Shown here: positions 30,000-43,015 of the stretch, one piece after another
How the letters are laid out: each line of letters opens with the position of its first letter
Numbering within the stretch: position 1 is the first letter of the stretch
Assembly: GCA_030531205.1 (NCBI GenBank)
Contig: JAUNOC010000006.1
Span: forward strand, 1-64,000
Direction of reading: 5' to 3'
DNA: 64,000 nucleotides
Source: Phascolarctobacterium sp.
GTDB lineage: Bacteria; Bacillota; Negativicutes; Acidaminococcales; Acidaminococcaceae
Program-made: the position numbers and the translations under genes
The notes under the pieces: generated by a model
Seen by the model: the letters and a program-made list of their open reading frames with translations, nothing else
The model's database searches: none
What the model was told of the DNA's origin: nothing

Positions 30000-30023
30000 T
30001 TAGGTAATAAGTTCCTATAAACC
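30000..30023 (+). repeat. Degenerate core repeat copy
   Basis: TTAGGTAATAAGTTCCTATAAACC: weak match to the 24-bp core directly before a terminator hairpin. Confidence 0.5.
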
Positions 30024-30055
30024 AAAAAGCACCTTGCTCTGCAAGGTGCTTTTTG
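30024..30055 (+). terminator. Terminator of the TRAP operon
   Basis: AAAAAGCACCTTGC/GCAAGGTGCTTTTT stem with a 4-nt loop. Confidence 0.9.
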
Positions 30056-33336: not shown

Positions 33337-33930
33337 TCCTACTGGTTTCTCGTCCACCAAGTGAACAATCTTGATATTTTTGCAGTTGTTCTCTACAATG
33401 TTTTCCATATAAGATGCCAGCCATTCAGGTTTTACATAGGATTTTGGTAGGGTGGCGAGACAGAACGCTGCTGCATCGCTTTCGGGGATGACGGGCAGTT
33501 TGGCAATTTTTCTGCCAAGAAAACGCATCACCTGCAAAATGGCGGTTGCCTCATCAAGAACATCATTGGTTGCCAGTTCCAAAGTTTGAATTACGGTGGA
33601 ATACGCCTTTTTCATCTTTTGGGTGCTGCGTTTGGAAAGGACGGGGTTTTTCTTGATAATTTCAATATCTTTCTGTAAGTCCGCATTGCTTTCAAGATAG
33701 AGGTTGAACTTAAACAAACTCAATTCCCGTTTGGCATCGGTGTATTGTTTTTCCGTCCAGTTGAAAGGGAGATTGACAATTTTGTCTAAAGCGGCTTTAA
33801 TCTCACGGGGAGTGCGGGAACTTTTGGACATCTTTTCCAGTTGCCACGAGTTTAAGATTTCTGTCGCTTCTAATTGCAGTTTCTTCTTCATACGGTAGCG
33901 TCTGCAACATTCACTGTGTTCTAATTTCAT
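33334..33930 (-). CDS. Hypothetical protein, 198 residues
   Basis: Not recognised. Basic, helix-rich, soluble protein; opens MKLEHSECCRRYRMKKKLQLEATEILNSW. It has a good GGGAGGA ribosome site and its own terminator, so it is a real gene. Two cysteines near the N terminus (CCRRYR) and a C-terminal segment SDAAAFCLATLPKSYVKPEWLASYMENIV are the most distinct stretches. It diverges from the WYL regulator across a strong palindrome and may be one of its targets (inference). Confidence 0.65.
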   Translation of the reverse strand: MKLEHSECCRRYRMKKKLQLEATEILNSWQLEKMSKSSRTPREIKAALDKIVNLPFNWTEKQYTDAKRELSLFKFNLYLESNADLQKDIEIIKKNPVLSKRSTQKMKKAYSTVIQTLELATNDVLDEATAILQVMRFLGRKIAKLPVIPESDAAAFCLATLPKSYVKPEWLASYMENIVENNCKNIKIVHLVDEKPVG

Positions 33931-33986
33931 AACTTTAGTCCTCCCACATTATATTTTTGCTTTCAAAATAACAAAAATCTATTCTC

Positions 33987-34023
33987 AAAATCGCGAGATT
34001 TTGATATAAAATCTCGCGATTTT
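33987..34023. promoter_or_regulatory. Perfect 16-bp-arm palindrome between divergent genes
   Basis: AAAATCGCGAGATTTT (33987-34002), 5-nt spacer, AAAATCTCGCGATTTT (34008-34023). Each arm carries a TCGCGA core. It lies in the divergent region of the 198-residue gene and the WYL regulator, where neither gene ends, so an operator is more likely than a terminator. Confidence 0.6.
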
Positions 34024-34134
34024 AGAAATGACTTTTCGTAGTTTTTTTCGCTTCAAACTGTGTGTTCATTATAAAACTTTTTGTTTTGTGTGGCAAGTAG
34101 AAGTTGAAATAAAATATTTTTTCTAACAATATTA

Positions 34135-34143
34135 TGTTATAAT
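34135..34143 (+). promoter_or_regulatory. Extended -10 promoter of the WYL gene
   Basis: TGTTATAAT 33 bp before the ATG; no clear -35. Confidence 0.5.
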
Positions 34144-34175
34144 AAACTAACAAAAACAGTTTGAGGTGTTGCGGG

Positions 34176-35165
34176 ATGGATGAAAGTTTGAATAATAAAA
34201 AAATAATTCCGTTCAAAGTATTGGAAATCTTGAAAAAGGAAACAGATGAAGAGCATCGCCTGACTCAAATGGCGATTGTTAATATTTTGCAAGACCAGTA
34301 CGATTTAAGCTGCGACAGGCGGACTGTGGCAAACAGTTTGGATATGCTGGCAGAACAATTACATTATGATATTGATAAGAACAGGGACGGGTATTGCCTT
34401 TTGGACAGGGATTTTGAAGATGCGGAATTGAGAATGTTGATTGACAGCGTTCTTTTTTCTAAAATCTTAACCAAAAATCAGGCAAAGCGTTTGTTGAAGA
34501 AGATTAAGAATTTAGGAAACAAGTATTTCAGCAAGTCCGTGCCTGAAGTGGAAATGCTTGACGGTATTGGCTGGTCCCAAAATCCAAATTTCTTGCAATC
34601 TGTTGCCAAATTGAATGAGGCAATTCATGAGAAAAAACAGATTGAATTTCCCTATCTTAAATATAATGAAAAACTGCAACTGTGTGAAACAGGGCATAAA
34701 TATCTCGTGAACCCCTATTATTTATTGGCGGCAAACGGTTTTTATTTTCTTTTGGGAAATTATGACAAATACGACAATGTAAGTTATTACCGCATAGACA
34801 GAATTGGTGAAGTAGATATCTTAAACACAAAAGCAAAACCGAAAAAGCAAGTTAAAGGGTTGACAGAAATCTGGGATTTGCCCAAACACATGGCAGAGCA
34901 TATTTATATGTTCAGCGGGGAAACGGTAAGAGTTGAGATAAAGACAACCAAAGATATGGTTTCTGATTTTGTGGATTGGTTTGGCAAAGATATTTTGATA
35001 AAACCCTTAAAGGATAATGAAATAATAGTTACGGTTCATTCCAACGAGCAGGCGATATTCTACTGGCTGTTGCAGTACGGAATGTATGTGGAGGTGCTGA
35101 AACCGCAAAGTTTAAGGGATAAGATGAAAGAAGCGGTACTAAATTTACAAAAGAAATATTGTTAA
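34176..35165 (+). CDS. WYL-domain transcriptional regulator
   Basis: 329-residue regulator: N-terminal winged-helix DNA-binding part (LTQMAIVNILQDQYDLSCDRRTVANSLDML), then a WYL ligand-binding domain (KYLVNPYYLLAANGFYFLLGNYDKYDNVSYYRIDRI) and a C-terminal WCX-like extension. GAGGTG lies 7 nt before the ATG. WYL proteins often control phage-defence or DNA-damage genes and bind inverted repeats. Here it heads the accessory region and faces a large palindrome upstream. Confidence 0.85.
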   Translation: MDESLNNKKIIPFKVLEILKKETDEEHRLTQMAIVNILQDQYDLSCDRRTVANSLDMLAEQLHYDIDKNRDGYCLLDRDFEDAELRMLIDSVLFSKILTKNQAKRLLKKIKNLGNKYFSKSVPEVEMLDGIGWSQNPNFLQSVAKLNEAIHEKKQIEFPYLKYNEKLQLCETGHKYLVNPYYLLAANGFYFLLGNYDKYDNVSYYRIDRIGEVDILNTKAKPKKQVKGLTEIWDLPKHMAEHIYMFSGETVRVEIKTTKDMVSDFVDWFGKDILIKPLKDNEIIVTVHSNEQAIFYWLLQYGMYVEVLKPQSLRDKMKEAVLNLQKKYC

Positions 35166-35171
35166 AAATGG

Positions 35172-35209
35172 GTCGTGTACAAATTTTTGTACACGACTTT
35201 TTGTATAAT
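35172..35209 (+). promoter_or_regulatory. TGTACA dyad and promoter before the beta-CASP operon
   Basis: Dyad GTCGTGTACAAA...GTACACGAC with TGTACA at 35176-35181 and 35188-35193 (12 bp apart) and TATAAT at 35204-35209. It can act as terminator of the WYL gene (T-run follows) and, by geometry, as a YefM-YoeB-type operator covering the -35 region. Confidence 0.65.
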
Positions 35210-35233
35210 GGGGATAGAAAGGAGGTGGACGAA

Positions 35234-35461
35234 ATGGAAAATATGAAAGAAAAAATTGAGATTGGTTTGGACGAAGAAGGAAAGGTGGTTGTTAAATCAG
35301 ATGTAAAAACAATGGATTTTTTGAAAAAGGCAATTCGTGCAATTCAAATTGCAGTATTTGACCAACTTGTAAAAGAAGGACATAACAAAAGTTTAATGGA
35401 AATGATTATTTTGGCAGACACAGTTATGAAGGAGGCATTGGGAGACAACAAGCATGCTTAA
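35234..35461 (+). CDS. Small hypothetical protein, 75 residues
   Basis: Not recognised. Starts at ATG 35234 with a perfect AGGAGGTG 7 nt upstream; the frame is open 75 nt further without a ribosome site. Sequence MENMKEKIEIGLDEEGKVVVKSD, then a helical part FLKKAIRAIQIAVFDQLVKEG. First gene of an operon with the metallohydrolase, whose ATG overlaps its last codons. Confidence 0.7.
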   Translation: MENMKEKIEIGLDEEGKVVVKSDVKTMDFLKKAIRAIQIAVFDQLVKEGHNKSLMEMIILADTVMKEALGDNKHA

Positions 35462-36623
35462 GATTATTTTTCACAAAGACCCGGAACGGGTCGGGGGCGG
35501 CATTACAGAAATTAGCAGTAACGGCAAGCGATTGATTATTGACATGGGAGCGGATATGGATAAGGGTTTTGATTGTGAAGAGCCCAATCCTAATATTGAA
35601 GGTTTGACGGTGGGGGATGCTAATGTGGGGGCAATTTTGATTACCCATTATCACGCTGACCACATCGGTTTATTGAAATATGCTTTGCCCAATATTCCTG
35701 TGTATATGAGTGAAACAACACAGGCGGTGGCAAAGATTATGGAAGGCGGTTTTTCGCCTTATTATGAAACCTTGGAAAAAGCAAAAATTATCCGCTTTGA
35801 GGACTTTGGCAAAACATTCAGCCCCTGTGAGGGATTTGAGGTAATTCCTTTACGGGTTGACCACTCTGCCTTTGATGCTATGGCTTATGTAGTTATGGCG
35901 GAGGGCAAAAAGATTTTCTTTACGGGGGATTATCGGGAACATGGTTATACGGGGTTTAAAATAAAAAAATTATTTAAAATGTATGCCGGTGATGCGGATG
36001 TAATTATTACGGAAGGTACACAAGTTTCCCGTCAGTCCGCTGGTATTATCAGTGAGAACAAACTGCAAAAGGGATTTATGGAGATTTGCAAGAAAAACAA
36101 ATATGTGTTGTATATGGGTTCTTCCACCAATCTGGACAGTGTAATCAGTTTGGCTTTGGCTGCAAAGAAGACGGGTAAGTGTTTCAGTTATATTGATGAA
36201 TACTCTGCAAAAATGGCAGAAATTTTAGCAGGGTTTGCCAAGTCGGATTTGTATAAAGAATGGAAACCTGTGGAGCGAGATGTTAAAAAGGGCAGGGTGG
36301 TTGTGTGCCGGATGAGTAATATTGCCTATATTAAAAAATTCTTTGAAAAGCACGGGAAGGACACGGTACTGGTTTATTCCATGTGGCAGGGTTATATTAA
36401 GGACAACGAAAAATTGCAGGAACTGGAAAAAGAGTTTGGGGATAGGTTTATTAAGTTGCACAGCAGCGGTCATGCCAGCAGGGAACTGATACAGGGGGTG
36501 TTGGCGATTTGTGGCAAGGCAAAAGTTTTACCGATGCATACGGAGAGTTTTGCAGAATTTAAGAAAATCTGCCGTGCCAGCAGGGTTGTGGAGTTGAAAA
36601 AGGGGGATGAGTATGTAGTATAA
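35454..36623 (+). CDS. Beta-CASP metallo-beta-lactamase-fold hydrolase, RNase J-like
   Basis: 389 residues. Zinc motif HYHADH (H65, H67, D69, H70), LRVDHSAFDA, FTGDYREHG (metal-bridging Asp), and C-terminal LHSSGHASRELIQ and PMHTE, which resemble the HVSGHA and PVHGE motifs of RNase J. Much shorter than RNase J (about 555) and lacking its C-terminal domain. Probably a nuclease acting on RNA or DNA (inference). Overlaps the 75-residue gene by 8 nt; a 49-residue gene starts one base after its stop. Confidence 0.82.
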   Translation: MLKIIFHKDPERVGGGITEISSNGKRLIIDMGADMDKGFDCEEPNPNIEGLTVGDANVGAILITHYHADHIGLLKYALPNIPVYMSETTQAVAKIMEGGFSPYYETLEKAKIIRFEDFGKTFSPCEGFEVIPLRVDHSAFDAMAYVVMAEGKKIFFTGDYREHGYTGFKIKKLFKMYAGDADVIITEGTQVSRQSAGIISENKLQKGFMEICKKNKYVLYMGSSTNLDSVISLALAAKKTGKCFSYIDEYSAKMAEILAGFAKSDLYKEWKPVERDVKKGRVVVCRMSNIAYIKKFFEKHGKDTVLVYSMWQGYIKDNEKLQELEKEFGDRFIKLHSSGHASRELIQGVLAICGKAKVLPMHTESFAEFKKICRASRVVELKKGDEYVV

Positions 36624-36624
36624 A

Positions 36625-36774
36625 ATGACGGAATATATTGTTGACGTAAAAGAAATGATTGAAAAACTTGGTTATGAAGTGCCGATGGTGTTGGATAAAA
36701 ATGAAAAGATAATTTGTCCACAATGTAGTATTATAATATGCTTAGAGAGTAAAAGAAGAGGGGAGTTATCATGA
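36625..36774 (+). CDS. Small protein with a CPQC half zinc ribbon, 49 residues
   Basis: Begins 1 nt after the metallohydrolase stop and overlaps the next ATG by 4 nt, so position favours a true gene. MTEYIVDVKEMIEKLGYEVP... then IICPQCSIIICLES: a CxxC that could bind zinc with a partner. No family recognised. A GGGGATG-like purine stretch upstream may serve as ribosome site. Confidence 0.55.
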   Translation: MTEYIVDVKEMIEKLGYEVPMVLDKNEKIICPQCSIIICLESKRRGELS

Positions 36775-37103
36775 GGAAAAACAAAAAAGAAAATCCTAAA
36801 TGGACAAAAGAAGAATTGCTTAAAGCATGCTTCTTTGATTTCTTGAAGCAAGAGCGTGAATTTGATGGACCGTTTGAGTTTGATGAGGAACTTGGAGAGG
36901 ATGTAATTGCATGGTATTCTGAAGATTTTGATGGAAATGGTAATTTAAGGGAAGGCATGAAAGATTGGGAATGGGTATTGAACGGCGAAGATGGGCCTGA
37001 TGATGATACTGTTCTAGCAAGAGATGAAGAAAGACATTGGGTTGTTGCTCCACGAAGTGAATGTGTCTGGGATGGGAATGAGTGGATTTGTAAGGAAGAT
37101 TAA
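36771..37103 (+). CDS. Acidic hypothetical protein, 110 residues
   Basis: Not recognised. Strongly acidic and tryptophan-rich (KDWEWVLNGEDGPDDDTVLARDEERHWVV), no membrane segment. Its ATG overlaps the 49-residue gene (ATGA), preceded by GAGGGGAG. Last gene of the metallohydrolase operon. The acidity recalls DNA-mimic or inhibitor proteins, which is only a guess. Confidence 0.6.
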   Translation: MRKNKKENPKWTKEELLKACFFDFLKQEREFDGPFEFDEELGEDVIAWYSEDFDGNGNLREGMKDWEWVLNGEDGPDDDTVLARDEERHWVVAPRSECVWDGNEWICKED

Positions 37104-37163
37104 CGCACTTAAAATAGTGGTGGTTACCTGACGGAAAAGGTAGTTTAGATTTGTAGTTTGTGG

Positions 37164-37169
37164 TATAAT
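37164..37169 (+). promoter_or_regulatory. Extended -10 promoter
   Basis: TGGTATAAT (37161-37169), 33 bp before a 35-codon frame with an AAGGGGAA site. Confidence 0.45.
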
Positions 37170-37202
37170 TAGAATATTAAAATTTTAAGGGGAATGAAAA
37201 TT

Positions 37203-37310
37203 ATGAATGAAACGGATTTTAAGGGAGACATATACAATATTTTAGGATTTAAAGTCACTGCTAAATTATTGGATATTGCCCGTGAACAACTTAAACTAAT
37301 TGCTGCTTAA
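37203..37310 (+). CDS. Possible 35-residue peptide
   Basis: MNETDFKGDIYNILGFKVTAKLLDIAREQLKLIAA, with a ribosome site (TAAGGGGAATG) and a -10 box upstream. Amphipathic helix-like C terminus. It may be a small gene or the remains of a longer one; the rest of 37104-37447 is gene-free. Low certainty. Confidence 0.35.
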   Translation: MNETDFKGDIYNILGFKVTAKLLDIAREQLKLIAA

Positions 37311-37447
37311 AATTGGTTGGCAAAAAATACCTGAAATTGAATTTACACACAAATTTGGACTTGACTGATGGCTTTAACATTTACCTTGCGGTTATGTGGT
37401 GAGTGTGGTAGAATATAGATGATCTAAATTTAAGGAGGGATAAAATT

Positions 37448-38170
37448 ATGGGGAAAAAGTATAGTTCGGCAGACACTGTAAATGCTATAACAAATGCATT
37501 TAATAAGAATGTCAGTCAGGCGTATAATGAAGATTGTATCAATTGGAGTGGCGATACTTCAGATACCAATAAAAAATATACTGAAGTAATTGCTAAAGAA
37601 ATTTTGAGTAAGCATTTACAAAAATTGCAAAAAAGGAGCAATGGTGGGGAGATTGACGAGATAACAAGGAATAAAAGTTATTTTACAGAAACTCATGATT
37701 GCAGCCCATTGGAAAAAGCAAAAAAATATGATGAAGAACATTATGCTATGTTGTTGAAGAAACAAGGGAAAATTTATGGTATTGGCGAAATTTTAGATTA
37801 TCAGATTCCGTTAAAGGATAAGCAAGGAGATGGTGTAGGAAAAATAGATTTGCTTGCGTATGATAGAGAAAAGAAAATTTTACGCATACTTGAATTAAAA
37901 AAACCAAACAGCAAGGAAACTTTACTTCGGTGTGTGTTGGAAGGAGAAACATATAAAAGTATTGTTGACCACGATAAATTGAAGAAAGATTTTGGCATTT
38001 GTGAAAATAATGTTAAAGTTGTTGCTTGTCCTCTAATTTTTGATACAGGTAATCCATATAACAATTATCAAGAAATGCTTGGAGGGAAATTACCATTTCT
38101 CCATAAATTAATTAAAAAATTGAAACAGGAAGTGTTTGTTATTGGTAAAGGTTTTGCAAGAATGAAGTGA
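37448..38170 (+). CDS. PD-(D/E)XK nuclease-like protein, 240 residues
   Basis: AT-rich gene with a good AAGGAGGGA site. The middle carries a restriction-endonuclease-fold core: VGKIDLLAYDREKKILRILELKKP, that is D...E-L-K-K, followed by LLRCVLEGETYKSIV, in which a helix follows the core. N-terminal 90 residues are polar and helical. No close family recognised. It is followed after 52 bp by another protein of the same fold; the low G+C of both suggests recent acquisition. Confidence 0.6.
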   Translation: MGKKYSSADTVNAITNAFNKNVSQAYNEDCINWSGDTSDTNKKYTEVIAKEILSKHLQKLQKRSNGGEIDEITRNKSYFTETHDCSPLEKAKKYDEEHYAMLLKKQGKIYGIGEILDYQIPLKDKQGDGVGKIDLLAYDREKKILRILELKKPNSKETLLRCVLEGETYKSIVDHDKLKKDFGICENNVKVVACPLIFDTGNPYNNYQEMLGGKLPFLHKLIKKLKQEVFVIGKGFARMK

Positions 38171-38222
38171 TGCTTACAACGTTATAAACAAAGCAAATAG
38201 TTTTATAGGAGGTGTACAACAA

Positions 38223-39212
38223 ATGGCAGAGTTTAATGCTTATGGGAAAAGAGTTGGTAGTATATTTGAGCTTATAGGAAACAAAGAAAATGACATTACT
38301 AAAAGTATTGCATGGGTTTTATATTGTTGCCCTGTATTTATGAAAAAATTTGTAAGTGCGATATTTGATATTGAGATAGATCCGAAAAAAGTTGATATGT
38401 ACTATCAAAAGTATGATAGCCAAAAGGGTATAACTGACCTTGAATTAACAGACGGAAAAAATTTTTATATTATAGTTGAAGCAAAAAGAGGATGGAATTT
38501 ACCGGGAGATAATCAAATAACTAGTTATTTAGAGAGAAAGGATTTTCAAAAATCAGAAATAGCAAACAAGGCTATTGTTACATTATCCGAATGTAGTAAT
38601 GAGTATGCAAAAGATCATTTGCCGTTTATTCAAAAAATGGGTATTCCTATTAAGCATTTATCATGGCAACAAATATGTTCTATTGCAGAAAATTCCAGAG
38701 AACAATCAAATAATAAGGGGAAAAATTTGTTAAATGAATTGAGAGAATATATGGGAGGTATAATGACTATGCAAACAAAAGATTCGAATTGGGTTTATGT
38801 TGTTTCTTTAAGCAGTGGCAAACCGGATAATTGTAGAATTAGGTGGATTGATATTGTAAGGAAACATAACAAATATTTTCATCCCGTTGGAAATACGTGG
38901 CCACATATGCCAGTAAATTATGTAGCATTTAGGTATGGCGGAGAACTTAAATCTATTCATCATGTTGATAGTTATGAGGTAACGGATAATTTACATAAAC
39001 AAGTTCCAGATATGCCAGATGTTAAGGAATCTAATAAATATTATGTATATAATCTAGGCCCAGCAATTGTTCCTAACAAGAAAGTAGTTACTGGAAAAAG
39101 TATAAGACAGGCTAGAAGGGTTTATGCAATGATTGATTTACTTCTTACATCTGATTCAATAGAGGAAGCGGTAAAGATAAGCAAGGATAGGGAAAATAAC
39201 AAAAAAGAATAA
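38223..39212 (+). CDS. PD-(D/E)XK nuclease superfamily protein, 329 residues
   Basis: Nuclease-fold N-terminal half with the core GITDLELTDGKNFYIIVEAKRGW (D...E-A-K) and QITSYLERKDFQKS, similar to PD-(D/E)XK family 4 proteins. The C-terminal half (from about 180) WVYVVSLSSGKPDNCRIRWIDIV... is unassigned and may recognise a target. AGGAGG precedes the ATG. Possibly a defence nuclease, or part of a pair with its upstream neighbour; no modification or partner enzyme is near. Confidence 0.65.
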   Translation: MAEFNAYGKRVGSIFELIGNKENDITKSIAWVLYCCPVFMKKFVSAIFDIEIDPKKVDMYYQKYDSQKGITDLELTDGKNFYIIVEAKRGWNLPGDNQITSYLERKDFQKSEIANKAIVTLSECSNEYAKDHLPFIQKMGIPIKHLSWQQICSIAENSREQSNNKGKNLLNELREYMGGIMTMQTKDSNWVYVVSLSSGKPDNCRIRWIDIVRKHNKYFHPVGNTWPHMPVNYVAFRYGGELKSIHHVDSYEVTDNLHKQVPDMPDVKESNKYYVYNLGPAIVPNKKVVTGKSIRQARRVYAMIDLLLTSDSIEEAVKISKDRENNKKE

Positions 39213-39282
39213 AACGAAATGTATTTTATTATAATTTGATTGTTGGAAAATATTTTAACAAATTATAAAAAAATAAATACCA

Positions 39283-39324
39283 AAAGCCGTGTACAAATTT
39301 TTGTACACGGCTTTTGCTATAATG
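39283..39324 (+). promoter_or_regulatory. TGTACA dyad and promoter before the 112-residue gene
   Basis: AAAAGCCGTGTACAAA/TTTGTACACGGCTTTT, perfect 16-bp arms with TGTACA at 39291-39296 and 39303-39308 (12 bp apart), followed by TGCTATAAT (39316-39324). Same arrangement as at 35172-35209. Confidence 0.7.
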
Positions 39325-39349
39325 CTGACATTATACGAAGGAGGGAAAT

Positions 39350-39688
39350 ATGTTTAAGCGAAAAGAGGCAATGAGACAGATAAAATTACATTTGCGTATG
39401 ATGGCAGCTACTGATTGGAATGCTGCTCTTTTGTTGGCACAATTTTATGACGCTCATAATGCAGTTTTTTGGTATAACAGGGCTATTGATTTAGGAAGTA
39501 TAAAGGCAGTCAAATTATTATCAGACAAATGTATTGAGGACAGGGATGGTGAAATAGATTTTGCGGAAACTTATGATGTACTATTGAGGGGAATAGATTT
39601 GCGGATAGCAAAAATGACCATTGAAGAAAAGAATAAGATAGTTCGTGAATATCTTAAAGTACAGGCATTGCAAAATCTACTTGAATAA
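39350..39688 (+). CDS. Small Sel1/TPR-like protein, 112 residues
   Basis: Helical protein with one or two Sel1-like repeats (DWNAALLLAQFYDAHNAVFWYNRAIDLGSIKAVKLLSDKCI), normally protein-protein interaction modules. GAAGGAGGG site before the ATG and a dyad-covered promoter. No specific family recognised. Confidence 0.6.
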   Translation: MFKRKEAMRQIKLHLRMMAATDWNAALLLAQFYDAHNAVFWYNRAIDLGSIKAVKLLSDKCIEDRDGEIDFAETYDVLLRGIDLRIAKMTIEEKNKIVREYLKVQALQNLLE

Positions 39689-39747
39689 AAAGATTTTGCA
39701 AAATGTGAAGTTGGGGCAGTGTTGATTTTAGTAAGGATAAGTGCTTT

Positions 39748-40182
39748 ATGATTAATATTTATACGCAAATACCATTTAAGAATGATTGTATTGCAGTTTT
39801 GCATGGTTGTGAGTGTTTGGAACTTCTTGTAGGGGATAATTTTTATGATGAATATAAGGAGCCGTTTATTGTTTTTGCTGGTATTGAGGTTAAAGAAATT
39901 AATGAGTATTTGTTATTTGTTAAACAGAAGGTTGCTTGGCTGACTAAGTTATATGGCAAATATGCAGATTTTGAAGTTAAGCCGATTTTTGCTTTTAAGG
40001 ATATATATTCTGCACAACATTTTTTAAGAATATATGAGAGTAGGCACGATAAAAAGTTGTTTGTTGCCGAGATAAAAAAGAAGTTTAATTTATTCTATGA
40101 AGTTGAGGAAATAAAAGAAAAGTTTCTTGAGAAAATAGATGACAATAATAAGACAATAAATTTGTTTGAAAATAACCTGTAA
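39748..40182 (+). CDS. Hypothetical protein, 144 residues
   Basis: Not recognised. Soluble, lysine-rich, AT-rich gene (MINIYTQIPFKNDCIAVLHGCECLELLVGDNFYDEY). The ribosome site is weak (AAGGATAAG). It lies 59 bp after the Sel1-like gene and probably shares its promoter. Confidence 0.5.
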   Translation: MINIYTQIPFKNDCIAVLHGCECLELLVGDNFYDEYKEPFIVFAGIEVKEINEYLLFVKQKVAWLTKLYGKYADFEVKPIFAFKDIYSAQHFLRIYESRHDKKLFVAEIKKKFNLFYEVEEIKEKFLEKIDDNNKTINLFENNL

Positions 40183-40251
40183 TTTCAAAATCATTTTAGA
40201 TGTGGTAAAATTATGATAATTTGTTTTTGAAAAATTAGAAATTATGGCAGG

Positions 40252-41547
40252 TTGGATGCGGTGGTTAAGTTAGATAAGTTTAATTTGACAGATGAACAAC
40301 GGCAGGTTTTGAGCGTGATGCAGTCGGGACGGAATGTGCATATTTATGGCGAAGCGGGTACCGGCAAGAGTTTTGTTTTGCAAAAATTTATCCGTTCTTT
40401 ATCCGATGATGAATTGGCAAAAACCATTGTTGCCGCACCCACAGGGATTGCGGCCATCAATGTGGGTGGTGCTACATTGCACCGGGCATTTCGTATTCCT
40501 ATAACTTTGCTGAACCCCTATAAGCCGGTCAAAGTATCGCCAACGGTCAAGGCAGCAAGAAGAATTATCATTGATGAATATTCTATGATGCGGTTTGATA
40601 TTTTTGATTATGTTTCAAGAGTGATTTTTAAAGCGGAACAAAAGAACAACTGGAATATTCAGTTGATATTGGTGGGGGATGCTTTGCAGTTGCCACCAGT
40701 GATTAGAAATGAAGAATATACTTTTCTTCATCAGATTTGGAAGGACTTGATACCGAATATTGAGCACGGCTATCCCTTTGTTCATCCCAACTGGCAAAAG
40801 TTTGATTTTGTTGATTGTCATCTTACAAAGATTATTCGTCAAAGTGGTGATGAAGAATTGATTAGAAATGAAAACTTGGCTCGTGCGGGTGATAGTTGTT
40901 GTTTGGAATGGTTTGCTCAAAATACAGCAAAGAAAATGGATACTAAGGCAATTCATATTTGCCCTACCAACAGAATGGCGAACGGCATTAACGAGATGTG
41001 GTGCAGGCAGTTCAAGGACAGGGTAATTTTCAAAGCGGAAACAAATGGCAGTGTGGGTGAGCAAGATAAGATTACCAGCGATGTGTTGGAACTTGCCCCC
41101 GGTATGCGGGTTATGTCCGTGGTTAATTCCGCAGACCTTGAGCAGTATCAGAATGGCAGTTTGGGAACAGTGGTGGCTGTGGAACCGGAAGTAAATTCTG
41201 TAGAAGTGAAATTTGACAACGGGTTTCAAACGCCCATCGCCCCATATACTTGGGATATTTGCAATTATGAAGTTAAGGATTCAAAAATTATAAAAAAAGT
41301 AGTTGGTCAGTATCGGCAGATTCCTTTGAGAATTGCTTATGCGGTAACGATTCACAAATCACAGGGACAGACCTATGACAAGGTAATCATTCATCCTGAA
41401 TGTTTTGAAGTGGGTCAGTTGTATGTGGCTCTTTCAAGATGTAGGACGAGGGAAGGGATTTTTATTGCGGGGAAGTTAAAGCCGGATTATCTTATGGTGG
41501 CGGATGATGCGTTAGAGTTTTATGATAATTTAGGTTTTAGGTGTTAG
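40252..41547 (+). CDS. PIF1/RecD-like superfamily 1 helicase, 431 residues
   Basis: ATP-dependent helicase with Walker A GEAGTGKS, APTGIAAINVGGATLHRAF (motif Ia, PIF1-like), IIIDEYSMM (Walker B), GDALQLPPV (motif III), and the C-terminal AYAVTIHKSQGQTYDKV and VALSRCR motifs. Probably unwinds DNA with 5'-to-3' polarity. The frame starts at TTG 40252; GTG 40261 is an equally possible start. Common as a lone gene in bacteria; here it is between orphan genes and a toxin-antitoxin pair. Confidence 0.88.
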   Translation: MDAVVKLDKFNLTDEQRQVLSVMQSGRNVHIYGEAGTGKSFVLQKFIRSLSDDELAKTIVAAPTGIAAINVGGATLHRAFRIPITLLNPYKPVKVSPTVKAARRIIIDEYSMMRFDIFDYVSRVIFKAEQKNNWNIQLILVGDALQLPPVIRNEEYTFLHQIWKDLIPNIEHGYPFVHPNWQKFDFVDCHLTKIIRQSGDEELIRNENLARAGDSCCLEWFAQNTAKKMDTKAIHICPTNRMANGINEMWCRQFKDRVIFKAETNGSVGEQDKITSDVLELAPGMRVMSVVNSADLEQYQNGSLGTVVAVEPEVNSVEVKFDNGFQTPIAPYTWDICNYEVKDSKIIKKVVGQYRQIPLRIAYAVTIHKSQGQTYDKVIIHPECFEVGQLYVALSRCRTREGIFIAGKLKPDYLMVADDALEFYDNLGFRC

Positions 41548-41607
41548 GTGTGAGGTTTCAGGTGTGAGGGGCAAGGATGCAGTCCTAAATTTGTAAGAGG
41601 AATATTG

Positions 41608-41647
41608 TTGACAAAACAGACAAAATATTGTACTATATTTTGTACAA
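41608..41647 (+). promoter_or_regulatory. yefM-yoeB promoter and operator
   Basis: TTGACA (41608-41613), 17 bp, TACTAT (41631-41636). Overlapping dyad TTGTAC (41628-41633)...GTACAA (41642-41647), with cores TGTACT at 41629 and TGTACA at 41641, 12 bp apart. This matches the paired-hexamer operator through which YefM-YoeB represses itself. Confidence 0.85.
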
Positions 41648-41660
41648 AGGAGATGGTTAT

Positions 41661-41909
41661 ATGTTAGCAGTTAATTATAGTACAATCCGTAACAATTTCA
41701 AAGATTATTGTGACAAGGCAACAGATGCCAACGAGGTGGTTATTGTTACCCGTAAGGAAGAAAAAAATGTGGTGCTTTTGAGTTTGGACATGTATAACAA
41801 TCTTATGAAAGCGGCTCGTAATGCGGAGTATTTGGCAATGCTGGACAGGGCAACAGAGCAGTTGCGTTCCGGCAAAGGGCAAGTGCATGAGTTGCTGGAG
41901 GACTATTAA
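41661..41909 (+). CDS. yefM: YefM/Phd-family antitoxin
   Basis: 82-residue antitoxin: N-terminal DNA-binding Phd fold (MLAVNYSTIRNNFKDYCDKATDANEVVIVTRKEEKNVVLLSLDMYNNL) and a flexible C terminus that blocks the toxin. AAAGGAG lies 8 nt before the ATG at 41661. It is 3 bp from yoeB and represses the shared operator. Confidence 0.93.
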   Translation: MLAVNYSTIRNNFKDYCDKATDANEVVIVTRKEEKNVVLLSLDMYNNLMKAARNAEYLAMLDRATEQLRSGKGQVHELLEDY

Positions 41910-41912
41910 GAT

Positions 41913-42173
41913 ATGCAAAAACTTTGGGCGGACAGGGCGTGGGATGACTATTTGAATTGGCAAAATCAGGATAAAAAGACACTGAGAAAGATTAATGATT
42001 TGATTAAGGATATTGAACGCAACGGGGTGGAGCACGGCATCGGCAAGCCGGAACGGTTAAGGTACAGAAATTTGTGGAGCAGACGCATTGACCAGTTTAA
42101 CAGGTTGGTCTATGATGTGGATGAACAGGGTAATTTGTTAATTGTGGCTTGCAAAGGACATTATGAGGAATAG
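41913..42173 (+). CDS. yoeB: YoeB mRNA interferase toxin
   Basis: 86-residue ribosome-dependent endoribonuclease. Catalytic residues of E. coli YoeB have counterparts: E47 (GKPE), R64 (NRLVY), H83 and Y84 (CKGHY). The two extra C-terminal residues EE follow the usual terminal tyrosine. Pairs with YefM. Confidence 0.94.
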   Translation: MQKLWADRAWDDYLNWQNQDKKTLRKINDLIKDIERNGVEHGIGKPERLRYRNLWSRRIDQFNRLVYDVDEQGNLLIVACKGHYEE

Positions 42174-42193
42174 TTTAATAAATGGGAATTATT

Positions 42194-42227
42194 AAAGTCC
42201 GTGTACAGATTTTTGTACACGGACTTT
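42194..42227. promoter_or_regulatory. TGTACA dyad after yoeB
   Basis: AAAGTCCGTGTACA.../TGTACACGGACTTT with TGTACA at 42202-42207 and 42214-42219, 12 bp apart. It can end yefM-yoeB transcription and also nrdG from the other strand. TTATCTAAT follows where the other two copies have TATAAT. Confidence 0.65.
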
Positions 42228-42280
42228 ATCTAATAGCAAATTTGTTGCGGTTGCAAATGGTTTTGATGTGAAGAGAATTT

Positions 42281-42970
42281 TTATTTTCCTCTAATATAGG
42301 AATTTGGTATATATTTCTTTACCTCATTAAGATAGGCATTTAATTCTTCGTCTGTTGGGGCGGTGAGGTTCTTTTGCAGCACCGAGTCCCTGTCCACAAA
42401 GGGTTGCAAATAATAAGCACGGGCATCTTTCAGCCATTTGCCTATGGCAGTGAAATCAGCAAGTTGGTGCAGCCCTTTTACCACCGTAGTACGGAACTCA
42501 TACTCAATGCCACAGAATTTGATAAAGTCCACACTTTTACGGATGGCATCCATATCCACAGCCACACCCGTCAACAGTTCGTAATGTTCCGGTGTGGACT
42601 TGATATCCATAGCGATATAGTCCACCAAATTGCTGTCCACCAATTTTTTAATGACATCCGGCATGGTTCCGTTGGTGTCCAACTTGGTTTTGAAACCGAG
42701 TTTTTTTATTTCCTTTAGTAATTTGTCCAAATCTGGTCTTAAAGTCGGTTCCCCGCCGGTGATGCAGACCCCGTCCAAAAGTCCCTGCCGTTTGCTTAAA
42801 AATGTCAGCAGTTCCGCATCGTCCATTAAAGGGTCAGCGGTGGCGGCGTTCAGCAGTTCAGAATTGTGGCAAAAGGGACAGCGGAAATTGCACCCTGCCA
42901 AAAATACGGTACAGGCAGTATGCTCCGGAAAGTCCAATAAAGTTAGTTTTTGCAATCCATGTATAATCAT
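42281..42970 (-). CDS. nrdG: Anaerobic ribonucleotide reductase activating protein
   Basis: Radical-SAM activase that installs the glycyl radical in NrdD. 229 residues. The cluster motif reads CNFRCPFC (C-x3-C-x2-C), followed by CITGGEPTLRPD (GGE motif for SAM). Family: the longer, NrdG2-like activases. Divergent from nrdD, with which it works. No strong ribosome site is seen. Confidence 0.92.
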   Translation of the reverse strand: MIIHGLQKLTLLDFPEHTACTVFLAGCNFRCPFCHNSELLNAATADPLMDDAELLTFLSKRQGLLDGVCITGGEPTLRPDLDKLLKEIKKLGFKTKLDTNGTMPDVIKKLVDSNLVDYIAMDIKSTPEHYELLTGVAVDMDAIRKSVDFIKFCGIEYEFRTTVVKGLHQLADFTAIGKWLKDARAYYLQPFVDRDSVLQKNLTAPTDEELNAYLNEVKKYIPNSYIRGK

Positions 42971-43015
42971 AATGTATGTATTATATAATAATAGTGTTCA
43001 AAATGCAAGAGCAAA

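Follow-up and report, generated by a model that had tools for sequence, protein, structure and literature searches.

In the operators of Escherichia coli yefM-yoeB and of Enterococcus faecium axe-txe, two TGTACA cores lie exactly 12 bp apart (PMC7730913, PMC4803016), and residues R10 and R31 of the antitoxin are required for DNA binding in E. coli (PMC4803016). About 20 bp past the txe toxin gene of axe-txe there is a terminator-like stem-loop, and the passages of the report that deal with it do not describe a TGTACA pair (PMC3760812). The window analysed here, 64,000 nucleotides of a Phascolarctobacterium sp. (contig C5 of a 1.33-Mb draft genome, 98.8% complete), holds a gene pair of this kind with its operator:

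41661..41909, + strand: yefM antitoxin gene (PF02604, E = 5.6e-12; R10 and R31 conserved)
41913..42173, + strand: yoeB toxin gene (PF06769, E = 2.8e-27)
41629..41646, + strand: yefM operator, TGTACT-N6-TGTACA, overlapping the -10 box (TTGACA at 41608; -10 box TACTAT)

The yefM promoter is a plain member of the class defined by the yefM-yoeB and axe-txe operators. Its copy of the motif (41629-41646) is one mismatch (TGTACT) from TGTACA-N6-TGTACA, scores 28.4-28.7 bits, which is within the range of 25 class operators, and is placed as it is in 29 of 30 orthologues, a paired motif with at most two mismatches being found 30-54 bp upstream of yefM at 29 of 30 Negativicutes yefM loci. The local YefM has kept R10 and R31 when aligned with what we take to be the E. 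coli sequence, and both Bacteroidales antitoxins discussed below aligned likewise. Our comparisons support the TGTACA pair as a predicted YefM-type operator motif. Between the helicase gene and yefM (41530-41570 of the window) lies a short repeat, TTAGGTGT..AGGTGTGAGG, which is also present on contigs C2 and C3 of the same genome and on several contigs of a congener (G001).

Three dyads near yefM-yoeB

The same motif recurs in three hairpins, two of which are followed by a -10-like box:

35172..35197, + strand: dyad 1, putative terminator hairpin with core GTGTACAAATTTTTGTACAC, then TTTTTG and TATAAT (z = -5.3; stem 11 bp)
35204..35209, + strand: TATAAT (-10-like, from sequence) of the operon of a small ORF and an MBL-fold gene
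39281..39316, + strand: dyad 2, putative terminator hairpin with the same 20-nt core as dyad 1 (z = -8.6; stem 16 bp)
39315..39323, + strand: extended -10 TGCTATAAT (from sequence; TATAAT at 39318-39323), in front of the 39350 ORF
42193..42228, no strand assigned: dyad 3, hairpin with core GTGTACAGATTTTTGTACAC (z = -7.7 and -10.1 on the two strands)

The whole genome contains exact TGTACA-N6-TGTACA at three sites only (35176-35193, 39290-39307 and 42202-42219), all less than 7 kb from yefM-yoeB; the one-mismatch form turns up at the yefM operator and at two further, scattered places. Allowing up to one mismatch, the window has four matches against 0.16 expected, a number that none of 100 shuffles reached; the observation in the initial annotation that the yefM promoter cores and three further dyads share the 12-bp geometry was therefore right. 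The 20-nt core (GTGTAC...GTACAC) is identical in two dyads and has a single change in the other. A dispersed repeat or mobile hairpin was ruled out, the genome being without further copies, and a scan of 33500-43000 returned no known RNA family.

The dyads are set among the following genes:

34161..35165, + strand: WYL/WCX-domain protein, upstream neighbour of dyad 1 (PF13280, PF25583)
35454..36623, + strand: MBL-fold hydrolase with a distant RNase J-type match (PF12706; TIGR00649 at 51 bits, far under the cut-off of 400)
38223..39212, + strand: PDDEXK_4 nuclease-superfamily protein (PF14281, E = 3.5e-5)
39350..39688, + strand: 112-aa ORF of no recognisable family (no significant family up to E = 10)

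Dyad 1 begins 6 bp past the stop of the WYL gene, dyad 2 68 bp past that of the PDDEXK-type gene, and dyad 3 19 bp past that of yoeB, between the convergent yoeB (+) and 42281-42970 (-). The initial annotation took presence only after stop codons as an argument against a regulatory role; all three dyads are indeed found just past stop codons, but two of them also precede a promoter. At dyads 1 and 2 TATAAT is exactly 29 nt from the first base of the 20-nt core, and the hairpins end 6 nt (dyad 1) and 1 nt (dyad 2) ahead of it, an adjacency seen also in terminators that lack TGTACA. Of the two boxes annotated earlier, that at 35204 was correctly placed, whereas the other begins at 39318 and not at 39319. 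The promoter at dyad 1 has no -35 match, the place for which would be inside the hairpin, and dyad 3 has no TATAAT after it, no promoter beside it and no downstream gene. At 39318-39335 of the window the -10 box behind dyad 2 belongs to an inverted repeat, TATAATGctgaCATTATA, itself a candidate for a further operator. As for the gene products, 'Sel1-like' for 39350-39688 finds no support, no Pfam repeat being found even at E = 10, and 'beta-CASP nuclease' for 35454-36623 is reduced to the distant RNase J-type match, with TIGR00649 far below its cut-off. An assignment of the island to a defence system was tried and abandoned, the matches being only generic ones to WYL and helicase families.

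The dyads are probably intrinsic terminators

The best-supported reading of the dyads, and in our judgement a probable one, is that they are intrinsic terminators of one local family. Their hairpins are beyond chance (z from -5.3 to -10.1), and T-rich tails follow them (TTTTT behind dyad 1, TTTT closing dyad 2, and a weak tail of TTT only at dyad 3). The arms of the three dyads and of a copy in the congener G001 differ by three double (compensatory) changes and by several G-U changes, the latter mattering only in RNA; the congener copy reads TGTACG, which keeps the RNA pair as G-U and breaks the DNA core. In the alignment of these four sequences only, 96.4% of cells are paired, the C-GTGTAC inner arm is invariant and the outer arms are variable. 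The remark in the initial annotation that the dyads look like terminators is thus borne out by hairpins, tails, post-stop position and compensatory changes. With intrinsic (Rho-independent) terminators that abut promoters the dyads share stem, small loop, T-rich tail and a position after a stop codon, as well as, at dyads 1 and 2, TATAAT within 8 nt, as found at 30023-30055 of the window, a hairpin with the layout of dyad 2 and no TGTACA, and at five other TGTACA-less hairpins. What distinguishes them from such terminators is that the three have the same or nearly the same core, and that this core matches an operator whose repressor is encoded nearby.

Among 56 terminator-like hairpins surveyed over 627 kb, about half of the genome, 7 have TATAAT within 8 nt of the stem, where 0.6 would be expected; six of these lack TGTACA, and under the survey filter just one is a TGTACA dyad. 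Terminators also share inner arms: the pair counts add up to 22 when both orientations are tallied, four of them coming from the dyads themselves, whereas the null gives 0.7. Groups of widely separated hairpins with a common inner arm comprise three GTAACGTTACTTTT, two CGTAATTTTCA, two ATCCCACTGCA and two ATCCGCC hairpins, some of which differ in their paired outer arms; such groups may have arisen by the copying of terminators within the genome. The GTAACGTTACTTTT hairpins, whose outer arms differ, are at L252:14981, L259:9000 and L261:16261 (contigs C6 and C13 of the same genome), the CGTAATTTTCA pair at L256:17408 and L258:15912, and the ATCCCACTGCA pair at L243:17366 and L245:683. Since TATAAT adjacency and core sharing both recur in other terminators, neither is special to the dyads; what sets them apart is that they match the neighbouring repressor's operator.

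The hexamer TGTACA equals its reverse complement. A hairpin with TGTACA in one arm must therefore show a second copy in the other, and a pair of cores does not count as two separate events; the 12-bp spacing is supplied by the small hairpin loop. If the dyads are terminators, each would close the transcript of the preceding gene by a common 20-nt stem-loop core with differing paired outer arms, and dyads 1 and 2 would abut the -10 box of the next gene, like other terminators of this compact genome. The three may have arisen by copying of one hairpin, whose core would happen to hold the self-complementary TGTACA at YefM-operator spacing; the local YefM-YoeB may bind them, such binding presumably being weak or without consequence. 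Counting against the dyads being terminators only are the restriction of the exact motif to the surroundings of yefM-yoeB and the core-only scores in the operator range; the presence of the 20-mer before Bacteroidales YefM/YoeB-type operons, the invariant GTGTAC arm and the half-genome extent of the survey count in the same direction.

Could YefM bind the dyads?

The four best matches to the YefM-operator core in 627 kb are the yefM promoter, which is first, and the dyads, which rank 2 to 4. Scored on the 18-bp core only, dyads 1-3 reach 22.5, 22.5 and 20.5 bits, inside the operator range, and the next genomic site 15.9. When four flanking bases per side are included, however, the scores are 18.0, 14.5 and 12.7 bits, compared with at least 19.5 for all 25 class operators; the flanks are unlike those of class operators, and all three dyads fall under the lowest training operator (19.5).

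Searching about 85,000 species for GTGTACNNATTTTTGTACAC turned up 25 stretches. About 10 of these, from few lineages, adjoin small operons of two genes in Bacteroidales. The products of one such operon, taken as an example, match PhdYefM and YoeB, with the antitoxin just under the cut-off; a second Bacteroidales operon type had no Pfam match. Because the 20-mer fronts YefM/YoeB-type operons in Bacteroidales, and because R10 and R31 are kept, binding of YefM to the dyads is plausible, as judged from sequence. Bacteroidales operons of the PhdYefM/YoeB type with GTGTACACATTTTTGTACAC upstream were seen at L190, L193, L194, L197, L199, L200 and L205, and the paired-TGTACA geometry of GTGTACACATTTTTGTACAC is that of Negativicutes and Enterobacteria. 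As other candidate binders we inspected the DNA upstream of the remaining PhdYefM antitoxins of the genome (contigs C9 and C6), where no TGTACA pair was present. Similar 20-mers in four other genomes (G064, G078, G084 and G097) have surroundings that look, by inspection, coding rather than operator-like, and a GTGTACA dyad in G034 lies inside a coding gene and is unrelated. In a scan of viral sequences the loose pattern GTGTACA-N6-TGTACAC matched more than 100 stretches, and the constant distance of many of them from a contig end suggests a single prophage group; the tight pattern gave one match, inside an ORF.

It is possible, though doubtful, that each dyad serves both as a terminator and as an operator for YefM-YoeB. 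Bound to dyads 1 and 2, the complex would then cover about -41 to -22 of the promoter, and degradation of YefM would therefore release the MBL-fold, 39350 and toxin operons together. Such a role would fit an exact core with 12-bp spacing that is unique in the genome and clustered about yefM-yoeB, core-only ranks directly after the yefM operator, the occurrence of this 20-mer before PhdYefM/YoeB operons of another phylum, conservation of the residues needed in E. coli (R10 and R31; PMC4803016), and a core that is fixed while the outer arms vary. On the other hand, the flanks differ from those of class operators, dyad 3 has neither promoter nor downstream gene, and neither TATAAT adjacency nor a shared core is peculiar to the dyads among the terminators of this genome. 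The congener copy, TGTACG, further breaks the DNA core, and YefM was not detected in that genome, which is 80% complete. Other yefM-yoeB loci also lack close extra sites: in 20 other neighbourhoods (320 kb), with up to one mismatch allowed, 13 loci had the motif in the yefM promoter, and the one additional site, 9.8 kb away, has a degenerate core and is chance-like. As the motif is almost confined to yefM promoters in these neighbourhoods, a regulon of neighbouring genes is not general in the class.

Compared with the yefM-yoeB and axe-txe operators, the dyads share the two TGTACA cores 12 bp apart; they differ in lying after stops, in their G+C-rich paired outer arms, terminator tails and differing flanks, and one of them has no adjacent promoter. 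Dyad 3, 19 bp past yoeB, resembles in position the terminator-like stem-loop of axe-txe and, unlike it as far as the relevant passages of that report go, has a TGTACA pair (PMC3760812). MqsA, an antitoxin with regulatory targets beyond its own operon, and the omega regulator of pSM19035 would be functional precedents if YefM bound dyads 1 and 2 (PMC4803016); their DNA-binding folds differ from that of YefM. Among the papers that could be searched, none contained the phrase 'YefM regulon'. The initial annotation had proposed that the antitoxin regulates a small regulon of nucleases. This goes beyond the evidence, since the product of 39350 belongs to no recognisable family and RNase J is only distantly matched by the MBL-fold protein; the proposal has the motif match as its sole basis, and it is not supported, given the generic nature of TATAAT adjacency and core sharing, a dyad 3 with no gene downstream and the lack of extra dyads close to the other loci examined.

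Possible joints of gene-module exchange

Less likely still is that the dyads are joints of gene-module exchange, where recombination at a common hairpin put different blocks behind the WYL gene, a reading compatible with the dyads being terminators. The dyad-type hairpin was recognised, among 100 genomes searched, only in this genome and in the congener G001. There, dyad 2, its -10 box and the beginning of the 39350 gene come immediately after the WYL gene (76% identical); the joint falls at the dyad, and the 4.1-kb block that separates dyad 1 from dyad 2 is missing. At the start of this contig (C35; L176:1-110) the dyad 2/39350 module is 97% identical over 87 bp. In another genome (G002) the WYL gene is followed instead by an ExbB-like gene, as judged from its translation, and within the block the G+C content drops to 0.30-0.36. 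The joint, however, is carried by just 87 bp, at which one draft contig ends, and assembly error or contamination is possible; no recombinase and no target duplication came to light, and short repeats of any kind could recombine to the same effect. That three unrelated hairpins carry TGTACA by pure chance is, finally, vanishingly improbable: no support for it was found beyond the fact that one TGTACA per hairpin suffices to show two, and it is refuted by the 20-nt core common to the three. Against it also stand the 0.16 such dyads expected in the window even with one mismatch and the presence of GTGTACA-N6-TGTACAC, even once, in only 3 of 100 genomes, this one included.

Implications

With the dyads read as probable terminators, we regard it as rather unlikely that terminator, antitoxin operator and promoter are fused in one junction through which a type II antitoxin controls neighbouring operons, including that of an MBL-fold hydrolase. 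If this were true, loss of the antitoxin would turn on the toxin and its neighbours together. Should YefM bind the dyads, they would represent a compact case of a type II antitoxin regulating locally beyond its own operon, through DNA that doubles as a terminator. Should it not bind, the dyads would be a useful warning that terminators can imitate paired-palindrome operators, because TGTACA is self-complementary, and motif searches for YefM sites should then require flanks and promoter context.
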